Positions 47,933 to 59,756 of a stretch of 64,000 nt of DNA are shown here, one piece after another. Position 1 is the first letter of the stretch. Each line of letters begins with the position of its first letter. A model generated the notes under the pieces. The model did no database searches, had not been told where the DNA came from, and saw only the letters and a list, made by a program, of their open reading frames with translations. This stretch comes from Nocardia tengchongensis (GTDB taxonomy: Bacteria > Actinomycetota > Actinomycetes > Mycobacteriales > Mycobacteriaceae). A program made the position numbers and the translations under genes. Location: NCBI RefSeq assembly GCF_018362975.1, contig NZ_CP074371.1, positions 4,836,001 through 4,900,000 of the forward strand, in the 5' to 3' direction.

Positions 47933-48717
47933 TAGGAGTACGTCCTCCGCTCGTCGGGCGGTGGGATGCGCGCGCCCTTGTATTCGACCGGGATTCCGCC
48001 GAGCGGATAGTCCTTGCGCTGCGGGTGGCCACGCCAGTCGTCGGGCATGGCGATGCGGGTCAGCGACGGGTGACCGTCGAAGAGGATGCCGAAGAAGTCG
48101 TAGGTCTCCCGCTCGTGCCAGTCCACGGTGGGGTACACCGAATACAGGGACGGCAGGTGCGGATCACTGTCCGGCACCGAGACTTCCAGCCGCAGGCGGC
48201 GGTTGTGGGTGATCGAGTTCAGGTGGTAGAGCGCGTGCAACTCGCGGCCGGTGTCCTCCGGATAGTGCGCGCCGCTGGCGCCCAGGCACAGTTCGAAGCG
48301 CAGGGCTTCGTTGTCGCGCAACGTCTTCGCGACCAGCACCAGGTGATCGCGGCGGATGTGCAGGGTGAGTTCGCCGCGGAACACGACGATCTTCTCCACC
48401 GCCTCGTCGAAGGTCTTCGCCAGTGCCAGGCGCAGATGCGCGATGACCTCGTCGAAGACCGGGCCGTAGGGGGCGGGCGTGCCGCCGGGCATGGCGACGG
48501 TCTGGACCAGGCGGCCGTAGCCTGAGGTGTCGCCGGTGCCGGTGACACCGAACATGCCCTGGCGGACGCCGATCACCTCGTCGGCGGGCGGCGTGGGCCG
48601 GGCCGTCGGTCCGGATGGTGCGGCGTCGGCGGATTCCGTTGTGTCCGGGGTGTTCTCAGTGGGTTCCACGGCCGCCTCCGGGGGGCTCTCCGTGCCGACA
48701 GGTGCGTCGAAGCTCAT
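47932..48717 (-). CDS. nuoC: NuoC
   Basis: A 261-residue 30-kDa-type subunit. Residues 1-60 are a Pro/Thr/Ser-rich extension typical of actinobacteria; the core has [24 protein letters not shown] and [21 protein letters not shown] 48717 overlaps the nuoB stop as ATGA. Confidence 0.95.
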
Positions 48718-49267
48718 CGCAGCAGCCCCTTCAGCTGAATGGTCGGGGTGCTGGCGAGCGCGGCGGCTTCGGCCGCGCGCACGGCCTCTTCGCGATTGAC
48801 GCCGAGCGGCATCTCCTGAATCTTCTCGTGCAGCTTCAGGATCGCGTTCAACAACATCTCCGGCCGCGGCGGGCAGCCCGGCAGGTAGATGTCGACCGGC
48901 ACGATGTGGTCGACGCCCTGCACGATGGCGTAGTTGTTGAACATGCCGCCCGAGGATGCGCAGACACCCATGGCCAGCACCCATTTCGGTTCGGTCATCT
49001 GGTCGTACACCTGACGCAGCACCGGGCCATCTTCTGGCTCACCCGGCCCGCCACGATCATCAGATCGGCCTGGCGCGGGGAGGCGCGGAACGCCTCCATG
49101 CCGAAGCGGGCGATATCGAATCGCCCGCCGCCGGTGGCCATCATCTCGATCGCGCAGCACGCCAAGCCGAACGTCGCCGGCCACAGCGAACTCTTGCGCA
49201 GATAGCCGGCCATATCTTCCACCGTGCTCAGCAGGAACCCGCTGGGCAGTTTCTCCTCGAGACCCAT
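48714..49267 (-). CDS. nuoB: NuoB (frame broken by one base)
   Basis: The subunit carrying the N2 [4Fe-4S] cluster next to the quinone site. From ATG 49267: [39 protein letters not shown], and [13 protein letters not shown]. There the frame breaks at GGG 49024-49026; adding one base gives [32 protein letters not shown] and [11 protein letters not shown] to the end. The restored product is 184 residues, the expected size. A truly broken nuoB would disable complex I, so an assembly indel is favoured. Confidence 0.93.
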
Positions 49268-51552: not shown

Positions 51553-52709
51553 TGGTGGAACATGCGGAGGTCGGTGCGGGCCAGGGCGATGTGGTGGTCG
51601 CGGCAGGCGGCGGCGATGGTGTCGTGTTGGAGGGCTCCTGTTGGTTCGACGATGACTGATACACCGAATGCTGCGGCGGCGTCCACGTTGTCCCGGAACG
51701 GGAGGTAGCCGTCGGAGACCATGGTGAGGCCGGTCAGCCCTCGGGCCCATGCGGTGCGGTCACGCTCCTCGATCGGGGTGCCCGGGCGCGTCAGAAGGTC
51801 CGTGAGTTCACCGGTTTCTCGGGTGGTGAGGGTGCCCGCGGCGAGTGCGATCTGCCAGTTCAGCCGTTGTTGGCGTGGCAGATCCGTCGGTAGTGGGAGG
51901 GTCCGGATGTCGTGGTGGCGGCGCATCCACCAGGTGCGTGCCTTGGCTCCTGCGAGGTGGGTGCAGTCGATGCGTGACTGCTGGCCGGCTCCGACTCCGA
52001 CGGTCATTCCGTCACGGACGAGAACCACCGTGTTCGACTGGGTGAAACGGGCGGTGATCATGCCCAGTAGCGCGTCAGTGGTGGAGCTGTCGGAGAGCGC
52101 CGATTCGCCGACAGGGTGGAGCAACTCGGCGGTGATCGGCTCACGATCGTGGTCCTGCTCGATCGAGACACCGAACACCGTGCGGATCTCGGTAGCCGGG
52201 GGCCGGAAGCCGGGGTCGATGTCGACTACCAGGAAGCGGCCGCGTTTCTTGCGGGCCAGCTTGGCGACAGTTCCCGGCGCGTAACCGGGCGCGATGATGC
52301 CGTCGGACACCACCGTCGCCAGCAAGTCGGCCAGCTCGTCGTCCACGGGATCGGAAACCGCGATCATGTCTCCGAAAGACGATCGCGGGTCGGCGTCGCG
52401 GGCCCGGACATAGGCCGCGGCAACCGGTCCCAGCCCTGCCGTGCCCAACCCCCAGGTCTCGCACATGGTTTCGTCGAGCATCCCCGCCACTGCCGCCCCC
52501 GCCGGGGAAACATGCTTGAACGAGGCAGCCGCCACCTTGCCCGTCGCACGGCGCGCCTGCGCAACCAACTGCCAGGCATTCAACGCATCGAGGTAGTTGA
52601 TCATCGACGCCGACCCGTGCAGGACGCGGACATGCCGGTCGCTTCCATCGACGATCCGGGCCCGCTGATGAGGATTCATGCCGTACCGCAAATCCATGTG
52701 GTGCACCAC
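51549..52709 (-). CDS. Stand-alone AICAR formyltransferase (PurH C-terminal domain homologue)
   Basis: A 386-residue protein corresponding to the AICAR transformylase half of PurH without the IMP cyclohydrolase domain. YGMNPHQRARIV opens the domain, SFKHVSPAGAAVAG holds the catalytic Lys-His pair, and DGYLPFRDNVDAAAAFGVSVIVEP is the conserved C-terminal segment. Expected reaction: 10-formyl-THF + AICAR to FAICAR + THF. A ZTP riboswitch lies directly upstream, which supports a purine/folate-linked role. GTG 52709 or ATG 52697 may be the start; the latter begins at MDLRYGMNPHQ. A bifunctional PurH is presumably elsewhere. Confidence 0.87.
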   Translation of the reverse strand: MVHHMDLRYGMNPHQRARIVDGSDRHVRVLHGSASMINYLDALNAWQLVAQARRATGKVAAASFKHVSPAGAAVAGMLDETMCETWGLGTAGLGPVAAAYVRARDADPRSSFGDMIAVSDPVDDELADLLATVVSDGIIAPGYAPGTVAKLARKKRGRFLVVDIDPGFRPPATEIRTVFGVSIEQDHDREPITAELLHPVGESALSDSSTTDALLGMITARFTQSNTVVLVRDGMTVGVGAGQQSRIDCTHLAGAKARTWWMRRHHDIRTLPLPTDLPRQQRLNWQIALAAGTLTTRETGELTDLLTRPGTPIEERDRTAWARGLTGLTMVSDGYLPFRDNVDAAAAFGVSVIVEPTGALQHDTIAAACRDHHIALARTDLRMFHH

Positions 52710-52711
52710 TT

Positions 52712-52729
52712 CCCGAACTCAGGTTCGGG
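52712..52729 (-). promoter_or_regulatory. Hairpin between ZTP aptamer and start codon (expression platform)
   Basis: CCCGAAC-CTGA-GTTCGGG (7-bp stem) follows the aptamer directly. The next bases GTGGTGCACCAC are also self-complementary and cover the first possible start codon. No U-tract follows, so control of translation initiation is more likely than termination. Confidence 0.55.
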
Positions 52730-52805
52730 AGCACCCAGGCGGACGATGCTCCGATCTCGCGCTTCCTCGTGGTGAGACCCACGTGACGCCAGTCGCACCC
52801 GCCAC
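52730..52805 (-). ncRNA. ZTP (pfl) riboswitch
   Basis: Read on the minus strand, the leader carries the pfl-motif landmarks in the right order: a 5' stem with TGCGACTGGCG (52797-52787), the P2 hairpin CGTGGGTCTCACCACG, the GAGGAAGCGC joining segment, a variable linker, and the 3' CCGCCTGGG loop (52743-52735). ZTP riboswitches sense ZMP/ZTP, the purine intermediate that builds up when 10-formyl-THF is scarce, and usually precede purH, folD or glyA. The downstream gene is an AICAR formyltransferase homologue, so sequence and context agree. Found by eye, not by a covariance model. Confidence 0.85.
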
Positions 52806-52882
52806 TCTAGATCACGCCGCCGATGGCCGGGGATCGGGGAACTGTGGCCCGGGCGGGGTGCGCGCGGGCCACGGGCCTGGTG

Positions 52883-58385: not shown

Positions 58386-59030
58386 CAGAGCCTCCCGCAA
58401 GTCAACGAACGAACTACGCAAATATAGTTGCATGTCGCTAACTAATGAAATCGGGTGAGGCTCAGTGACCGGGCCGGGTCGCCGGGAACAGCCCGTTCGA
58501 CCAGGTCAGGCGTGCGGCCCGCGACTTCAGCGCGATCGAGGAATCGGGATGTCGGGAGGGATGAGAGGCTGGGGGATCACCGCGATGCATGCCGTCGCGG
58601 AGCGCCTGGGGGGGCCGAACTCTCGGAGTGCGTACCGTCTCCATTGCGAGGAGGGTGCAGCGTCCACGGTGATCTGTCAGTGGATCCGCGGCCATCCGAC
58701 AGGGCCTTGGTCTCGACCCGATCTCGTTGCCCGGCAACAGAGTTCGAGCCGAAGACGGACCTACGGCGTGGCCGGTCGATGGCAAGAGTGCCCGTGCGAG
58801 TCGGTCAGAATCGCCAAGATTTCGGCCTGCCGCCGGGGCGAGCCGATTTCTCCTGTGCGGCACGGCTTCCCGGCGGGGTCACAGATTCGACACTCCCGAT
58901 TTCGGCCCCGGTCAACACGCGTGTCGCAGCGCACCTTTCTGGAACGAAATGCAGTTACGCTGCTATTCGGGATCTCCGCCTGCGGTATCGAGCTCGTACG
59001 CCTCTTCGAGAACGAGAACAGGATCCAGTT
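58386..59030. other. Intergenic region between MFS gene and porin-like gene
   Basis: The left part holds the MarR operator. The remaining 580 bases lack a credible gene; the frames open there show no family pattern or ribosome-binding site. Confidence 0.5.
58425..58444. promoter_or_regulatory. Likely MarR operator
   Basis: An AT-rich 20-bp imperfect palindrome (TAGTT...AACTA at both ends) in otherwise GC-rich DNA, 40 bases before the MFS start. Such TAGTT-N10-AACTA sites are usual for MarR proteins controlling efflux pumps in actinobacteria. Confidence 0.65.
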
Positions 59031-59756
59031 ATGCGGCATGCGTTCATGGTCGCCACGGCAAGTACTGCCGCGGTCGGTGTGACCCTAGCGGGCCTGTGGG
59101 CCTGGGGTGCCGAACCTGTCCGGGCTCAGGCGCCCAGCGGGGATATGTCCGGCGCGGGAATCCACATTGTGGCGTCGGTCGACACCGTCGGGGTGAATCC
59201 GCCCGGTAACCGGACGCCGAACTTTCTGATGACGTTCTCGCATGCCGCGCAGATGTCGGGCAATTACTCGGTCACCGTGGACGGTGGCCCGATCTCGTCC
59301 GGTCAGGCCGTCGCGGGCTTCATCCTCGGCTGCGGGATCACCGTGGCCGGCGGCGTCACCGTCGGAATCGAGCCCAACCAAGGTTTGGCTGCCGCCATTT
59401 CCCCGTCGGTGACCCCGCCGAGCGTCTCCGTCAGCCCGCCGAGTGGGACGGTCACACCCAGCGCTTCGGTCACCCCACCCGACATCAGCCTCGGCCCCAG
59501 CGTGGGCGGGGCGCTGGGGTTGACAGAAGTCTTGACGGCGACCTTGGGGCCCGGCCAGGTCACCACCGCGACCACGGCGACCGCGGCGCTGGACAACACC
59601 ACCGAGTTCCCGTATCAGATCATGTTCAACAACGCCGCGTTGAACGTCGCCCAATGCGCTTCGCCGGTGTCGGCGGTCCCCTTCGTCACCGCCACGGTGG
59701 CAACCCCGAAGGGCGTGGTGCAGACCACCGCCTACGGCGACCAGTTCACCTTCTGA
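59031..59756 (+). CDS. MspA-family porin-like protein
   Basis: A 241-residue exported protein: signal peptide MVATASTAAVGVTLAGLWAWGAEPVRAQA. The core AGFILGCGITVAGGVTVG resembles the GYQVGC-type strand of MspA-like porins, and the C-terminus (NNAALNVAQCASPVSAVPFVTATV...TTAYGDQF) has the second conserved Cys and last strands. A Pro/Ser/Val-rich insert of near repeats (VTPPSVSVSPPSGTV, VTPPDISLG) lies in the middle. Such porins cross the mycolate outer membrane; this copy is diverged, so pore activity is inferred. Confidence 0.68.
   Translation: MRHAFMVATASTAAVGVTLAGLWAWGAEPVRAQAPSGDMSGAGIHIVASVDTVGVNPPGNRTPNFLMTFSHAAQMSGNYSVTVDGGPISSGQAVAGFILGCGITVAGGVTVGIEPNQGLAAAISPSVTPPSVSVSPPSGTVTPSASVTPPDISLGPSVGGALGLTEVLTATLGPGQVTTATTATAALDNTTEFPYQIMFNNAALNVAQCASPVSAVPFVTATVATPKGVVQTTAYGDQFTF

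Follow-up and report, generated by a model that had tools for sequence, protein, structure and literature searches.

A ZMP/ZTP riboswitch predicted to control an additional stand-alone AICAR formyltransferase gene in Nocardia tengchongensis

The DNA analyzed here, called the window throughout, is a stretch of 64,000 nucleotides (nt) from Nocardia tengchongensis (assembly GCF_018362975.1, contig NZ_CP074371.1, positions 4,836,001 to 4,900,000). Its minus strand carries a predicted gene for a stand-alone formyltransferase of 5-aminoimidazole-4-carboxamide ribonucleotide (AICAR), preceded by a leader that matches the riboswitch class for ZMP (AICAR ribotide) and the triphosphate ZTP. This pairing of riboswitch and gene had been proposed in a preliminary description made from the sequence without database searches, and it was followed up computationally. 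Positions are those of the window unless stated otherwise.

A single-domain formyltransferase gene and its leader

The protein matched the NCBIfam equivalog NF005492/PRK07106 with 424.3 bits (cut-off, 415) over residues 3 to 386 of 386 and fell short of the cut-offs of the bifunctional purH models. Its PF01808 match (189.6 bits) begins at profile position 76, the cyclohydrolase half being absent, in agreement with the preliminary description of a PurH C-terminal homologue without the cyclohydrolase domain. Solved chains of AICAR transformylase/IMP cyclohydrolase were matched over residues 3 to 386, namely, 1g8m (289 bits), 1p4r (288.5 bits), 1m9n (289 to 288.5 bits), and 3zzm (101.5 bits); we take the first three to be animal ATIC and 3zzm to be Mycobacterium tuberculosis PurH. 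The active-site motifs KHVSPAG, TQSNTV, GAGQQSR, and RMFHH are present, with the Lys-His pair at K61 and H62. At the position aligned with Phe541 of human ATIC, presumably a contact residue, the window protein has Tyr; Phe occurs there in L117 and G193, whereas L110, L111, G656, G576, and G705, among others, have Ala. The ATG at 52697, where relatives begin, is most likely the start; the alternative GTG at 52709, which would lengthen the protein, falls within the hairpin region described below. Two side observations concern the protein. Its similarity to the animal ATIC chains, in their formyltransferase half, far exceeds that to the PurH chains solved from bacteria (289 versus at most 101.5 bits), a difference of possible relevance to the origin of the eukaryotic enzyme, and some Nocardia copies (N. 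terrae and others; L112, L193, and L194; P0022, P0023, P0025, and P0027) are 322 to 325 amino acids long rather than approximately 382, with the searched motifs kept in L112.

Elsewhere in the 8.0-Mb genome, a single contig, lies a full-length purH (PF01808 positions 1 to 311, 390.4 bits, in a 524-amino-acid frame), as well as a second ZTP riboswitch (C1:2570921), 46 nt before glyA, the serine hydroxymethyltransferase gene. Protein similarity also puts the organism near N. tengchongensis (97% identity to P0001), and the names of close proteins agree with the genus Nocardia.

Using cmscan with Rfam 15, the leader was found to match the full RF01750 model (positions 1 to 86 of 86), scoring 45.9 bits where the gathering score is 39; the pfl landmarks named in the preliminary description are present. 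This was the sole Rfam match in the whole window at gathering thresholds, with E values of 2.6e-4 (window, all 4227 families) and 7.8e-6 (whole genome, RF01750 alone). The element had been placed at 52691 to 52806; the aptamer is indeed there but ends at 52726, 28 nt before the ATG, and positions 52725 to 52698 make up the expression platform (Table 1).

Table 1. Features of the gene and its leader (window positions)
Feature	Position	Strand	Basis or partner
Stand-alone AICAR formyltransferase, 382 amino acids	51549..52697	-	start ATG 52697; NF005492, PF01808, solved-chain match, active-site motifs
Sequestering hairpin, predicted ligand-free form	52700..52735	-	52735-52723 with 52718-52711 and 52704-52700, between aptamer and start codon
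Aptamer, ZMP/ZTP riboswitch (RF01750)	52726..52806	-	cmscan, 45.9 bits
P3 3' strand, UGCUCC	52728..52733	-	common to P3 and sequestering hairpin
P3 5' strand, GGAGCA	52747..52752	-	pairs with 52733-52728 in predicted ligand-bound form
P1 3' strand, GCGC	52759..52762	-	partner of 52795-52798
P2 5' strand, GUGG	52779..52782	-	pairs with 52772-52769 (CCAC); unchanged in 20/20 leaders
GGCG	52787..52790	-	presumed pseudoknot partner of CGCC in P3 loop (52741-52738); both in conserved core, 20 leaders
P1 5' strand, GUGC	52795..52798	-	pairs with 52762-52759 (GCGC); alignment A2, columns 9-12 with 45-48
Putative -10 promoter element, TAGAGT	52804..52809	-	TANNNT position fixed across leaders

Leaders lying directly upstream of homologous genes were collected (n = 22), and two identical ones were dropped (G602 = L109 and G643 = L112), leaving 20 distinct leaders. 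In the columns of their alignment the RF01750 core (GACUGGCG, P2, GGAAGC or GGGAGC, and CGCCUGGG) is invariant, and within it GGCG presumably pairs with the P3 loop to form the pseudoknot of published structures. P1 and P2 together were paired in 88.9% of alignment cells, compared with at most 59.1% in slid registers; P1 alone was paired in 81.5% and P2 in 100%, the latter without any variation. Both sides of a P1/P2 pair had changed in 13 cells, a number reached in none of 500 shuffles and compared with at most 5 in slid registers. A TANNNT motif starts 15 to 19 nt 5' of GACTGGCG in all 20 leaders, one of which has another at 24, whereas over 500 rounds of shuffling the upstream sequences it appeared on average in 1.9 of the 20 leaders and never in more than 6. 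This fixed -10-like element would probably place the start of transcription at the 5' edge of the aptamer.

Occurrence of the riboswitch and the gene in other genomes

Homologues were drawn from four genome sets that share genomes; with each genome counted once, 21 homologues remained, 18 of which have a ZTP riboswitch upstream, either directly (n = 14) or at 750 to 966 nt (n = 4). Within the family set (201 genomes), all four near-complete homologues (>400 bits) have RF01750 directly upstream, while in a fifth, G025, the gene is broken and no RF01750 match was found for it. The phylum set (346 genomes) yielded seven homologues (E value of ≤1e-60), all with RF01750 upstream, three directly and four at 750 to 966 nt. 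The riboswitch was present before seven of the eight homologues in the 148 genomes of the window's genus and before three of the five in a second genus set of 199 genomes, presumed to be Streptomyces. Overall, RF01750 was detected in 26 of the 201 family genomes and 39 of the 346 phylum genomes. In the two initial draws the riboswitch accompanied 10 of 10 unique homologues, which raised the expectation of a universal association; G576, G691, and G695, found in the larger draws, broke it. One genome counted among the 21, G151, may hold a damaged gene, as its frame overruns the usual end and lacks the RLFHH end, and G540 and G643 belong to the group with shortened proteins.

The riboswitch occupies the same position before homologues in records of Nocardia, Rhodococcus, Streptomyces, Actinacidiphila, and Kutzneria. 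Among the best 80 of at least 595 loci in genome_contigs, some of which carry little upstream sequence, it was found in 25, comprising all 11 with actinomycete titles and 14 of the 69 others; outside the actinomycetes, the gene in these 80 loci is thus mostly not under a ZTP riboswitch. Full-length PF01808 is also encoded in 16 of the 21 homologue genomes, and G695 has in addition to its homologue just a partial match of 62 positions. The remaining four (G264, G369, G391, and G454) have the NF005492-family gene as their only PF01808 match. In G454 the frame between riboswitch and formyltransferase is a PF07826 IMP cyclohydrolase, and similar-looking frames occur in G264 and G369, while the longest frame in the corresponding gap of G391 is not the cyclohydrolase-like one.

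The claim, already made in the preliminary description, that a ZTP riboswitch controls the stand-alone AICAR formyltransferase gene is supported by the score in Rfam, by the family to which the gene belongs, by the constant position of the -10-like element, and by the recurrence of the association across genomes.

Other partners of the riboswitch were encountered during these searches. In G151 a ZTP riboswitch (L069:8648-8726, minus strand, 49.5 bits) precedes a GNAT-family acetyltransferase gene (PF00583), an unusual partner; the same genome has two further ZTP riboswitches, one before the stand-alone formyltransferase gene and the other before a folD-like gene approximately 6 kb away. In four genomes of one genus of the same family (L051, L062, L058, and L059, from G090, G141, G152, and G162), the riboswitch lies directly before a gene resembling type II NADH dehydrogenase, with scores of 45.4, 43.3, 37.4, and 36.0 bits, respectively, the last two below the gathering score. 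The L051 protein matches 9mqy (NADH:ubiquinone reductase) with 676 bits, and those of L062, L058, and L059 are alike at their N termini; no paper combining a ZTP riboswitch with NADH dehydrogenase was found in the literature search. In one family of the phylum (L079, L087, L088, L089, and L098), the riboswitch precedes a phosphoserine transaminase gene, identified by TIGR01366 (648 bits) in L079, with the other four alike only at their N termini.

Start-site hairpin and competing explanations

A hairpin at 52712 to 52729, named in the preliminary description, is present but longer than described, as 52735-52731 (GGUGC) also pairs with 52704-52700 (GCACC). Its minimum free energy is -20.1 kcal/mol, a value as low as this being reached in none of 200 shuffles, compared with -10.4 kcal/mol for the P3 duplex. 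Because UGCUCC (52733-52728) is common to P3 and this hairpin, the two forms are mutually exclusive. The same arrangement was predicted throughout the group. In all 20 leaders the 3' strand of P3 can alternatively pair within the 22 nt 5' of the start codon; in 17 of them the start-site hairpin folds at least as well as 95% of dinucleotide shuffles, and in 14 the chosen Shine-Dalgarno-like stretch is less than 0.2 unpaired. The inner arms of the hairpin vary by clade yet remain complementary (AAC/GUU, UUC/GAA, UCUC/GAGA, AGU/ACU, and UCAGC/GCUGA), which is compensatory change in the expression platform. When P3 was forced, the accessibility of positions -14 to -5 rose in 19 of the 20 leaders, the mean increasing from 0.24 to 0.49.

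The reading we consider quite probable is that a ZMP/ZTP riboswitch activates the translation of an extra AICAR formyltransferase with a single domain. A shortage of 10-formyl-tetrahydrofolate would lead to accumulation of ZMP and ZTP, whose binding to the aptamer would stabilize P3, and P3 would then capture UGCUCC, a strand otherwise tied up in the hairpin by the nucleotides immediately preceding the start codon. With the start codon freed, additional formyltransferase would be produced and would consume ZMP; the product, formyl-AICAR (FAICAR), would be converted to IMP by housekeeping PurH, through its cyclohydrolase half. In this scheme we infer ligand binding, the ON direction, the translational level, and the physiological role.

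Several results weigh against this reading. The window leader is the single one of the 20 in which forcing P3 brought no gain in accessibility (0.60 to 0.60): two structures, a short hairpin and the self-complementary GUGGUGCACCAC at the start, still form. It also lacks a Shine-Dalgarno sequence of the GAGGAG type and has only a weak GGGA in the hairpin arm. A spacer-shuffle control on shared pairs gave values of ≤0.05 in just 3 of the 20 leaders (range, 0.00 to 0.52; window, 0.035), because complementarity to a Shine-Dalgarno sequence is common by composition. The whole leader folded no better than shuffles (z score of -0.33; -0.52 for 52660 to 52760) and the fold did not display the aptamer, to which little weight was given as the program models no pseudoknots. 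Covariation in homologous leaders, anticipated by the preliminary description, was borne out only in part: three of five measures for P1 beat all 500 shuffles and two did not. Although 13 cells are doubly changed, the 3 doubly changed P1/P2 pairs and the 11 further pair types do not exceed the shuffles, whose means are 2.8 and 10.7, respectively, and P2 is invariant. Finally, the three homologues that broke the universal association had no RF01750 match even at an E value of ≤10. The translational control suggested in the preliminary description is therefore carried by the leaders of the relatives rather than by that of the window: in these models the leaders fit a translational ON switch, with better support for the group than for the window member, which is the weakest case.

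It is rather unlikely that the switch acts instead on transcription, by an intrinsic terminator or by Rho on untranslated message. No T run was found 3' of the hairpin in any of the leaders inspected, that of the window included, and in all 20 leaders the 3' arm of the hairpin lies just before the start codon. Rho may nevertheless make some contribution.

A paralogue that is no longer an AICAR formyltransferase, or that uses another acceptor or donor, would let the riboswitch tie ZTP to a different reaction. The Tyr and Ala residues in place of Phe541 in the window and several other proteins would suit such a change, as would L198 and L199, two homologues without a riboswitch that have long branches and, in a pattern search, lack further motifs. 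The remaining motifs are nevertheless kept in the window protein, which passes the equivalog cut-off of NF005492. Moreover, the family provides the only PF01808 match in G264, G369, G391, and G454, in the last of these after the PF07826 IMP cyclohydrolase gene, and therefore can act as AICAR formyltransferase there. On this evidence a changed function is improbable.

It is very improbable that the aptamer has no regulatory function, whether as a relic or as a chance match: its score is just 7 bits above the gathering score and the window P1 has four standard pairs, but the core is invariant in 20 leaders and stands at the same position before homologues in records of five genera. Equally hard to credit is an OFF switch, such as the tandem OFF ZTP system predicted before moeA (PMC9481103), since the ligand would stabilize P3 at the cost of the hairpin preceding the start, from which an ON response is predicted, and induction by substrate is sensible for a consuming enzyme.

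Distribution, known systems, and significance

The riboswitch-controlled arrangement proposed above concerns a gene with a patchy distribution, present in 8 of the 148 genomes of the genus. In a protein tree of 41 rows, the window group comprises eight rows (support, 100/100), while G656 and G576, of the same genus, group apart from it with Streptomyces, Actinacidiphila, and Kutzneria rows. The fork joining the ten rows that include G656 and G576 has a support of 90/98 and is not starred, leaving its exact placement uncertain. The G656 aptamer resembles those from Streptomyces and Actinacidiphila most closely (86% to L111). Among homologues without a riboswitch, G691 and G695 have long branches and missing motifs, and G576 has kept the motifs. 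Using tblastn, nine window neighbors gave just one weak match, to a major facilitator superfamily protein (L065, 26% identity), at 12 related loci; three of these loci are 16 to 19 kb long and the rest have 1.5 to 3 kb of flank, so that absence is weak evidence. The ten queries included the gene itself, and the NuoB query, a frame with four stops, was uninformative. From these comparisons the gene shows signs of lateral transfer together with its leader, and the unit may be mobile. Speculatively, and with the odds against it, a mobile promoter, ZTP riboswitch, and ATIC-type formyltransferase might move among actinobacteria as a self-regulated module, adding ZMP consumption atop the housekeeping PurH in antifolate stress, perhaps also via 10-formyl-dihydrofolate.

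Two further observations concern the surroundings of the gene. In the complex I operon, nuoB (48714-49267, minus strand) appears split over two overlapping frames, which is either a real frame change or an assembly error. At 58458-59753 (plus strand), an MspA-like porin domain (PF09203) ends a long frame whose start is perhaps set too early.

The regulator class is known, and the gene type has long been listed for it. Thus, purH ranks with the five genes that most frequently follow pfl RNAs (Weinberg 2010, PMC2864571), in passages that leave the form of purH unspecified. The window resembles those cases in aptamer class and gene function, AICAR formylation, and differs in that a stand-alone formyltransferase is encoded in addition to a full purH and in that its platform looks translational. 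Like other members of PRK07106/NF005492 (PurH1), the window protein matches the family over its whole length above the cut-off, but it is a second copy in a bacterium with a bifunctional PurH; isolated PurH domains were described in 2011 as frequent only in archaea (PMC3261824). The arrangement in G264, G369, G391, and G454, all from one family of the phylum, combines the same riboswitch class and enzyme family on one strand but differs in the 750 to 966 nt separating them, in the lack of another PF01808 gene, and in the PF07826 gene of G454. The glyA riboswitch of the same genome shares the aptamer class and the presumed signal, while glyA serves one-carbon supply and not ZMP use.

ZMP is reported to accumulate when 10-formyl-tetrahydrofolate is short and to act via the ZTP riboswitch class on purine and one-carbon genes (PMC7266159, PMC9481103). 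A translational lacZ fusion to a Pectobacterium ZTP riboswitch was switched on by trimethoprim (PMC10117056), and glyA-lacZ behind the pfl riboswitch of Cupriavidus went up with trimethoprim, not with sulfonamide (PMC10882993). For ZTP switches with terminators, it is already known that the expression platform rearranges the aptamer (PMC13273304), and known PurH enzymes reportedly also take 10-formyl-dihydrofolate (PMC10197868). In the collection of papers searched, no prior report of a ZTP riboswitch in Nocardia was found. As far as seen in that collection, the following are new: a second, stand-alone copy of the gene in Nocardia-like genomes, a hairpin at the start site whose arms show compensatory change, the constant position of the -10-like element, and indications that gene and leader were transferred together.

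Induction of a second formyltransferase by its own substrate would lower ZMP, and the benefit in real folate limitation would depend on donor affinity; the role of relief valve for folate stress given to it in the preliminary description can reasonably be inferred. The 20 compact leaders lend themselves to the study of translational ZTP control in GC-rich bacteria. The locus is a clean case in which the predicted ligand of the riboswitch is the substrate of the sole enzyme controlled, in organisms that already own that activity, and it allows a direct test of whether ZTP riboswitches restore folate or merely remove ZMP.
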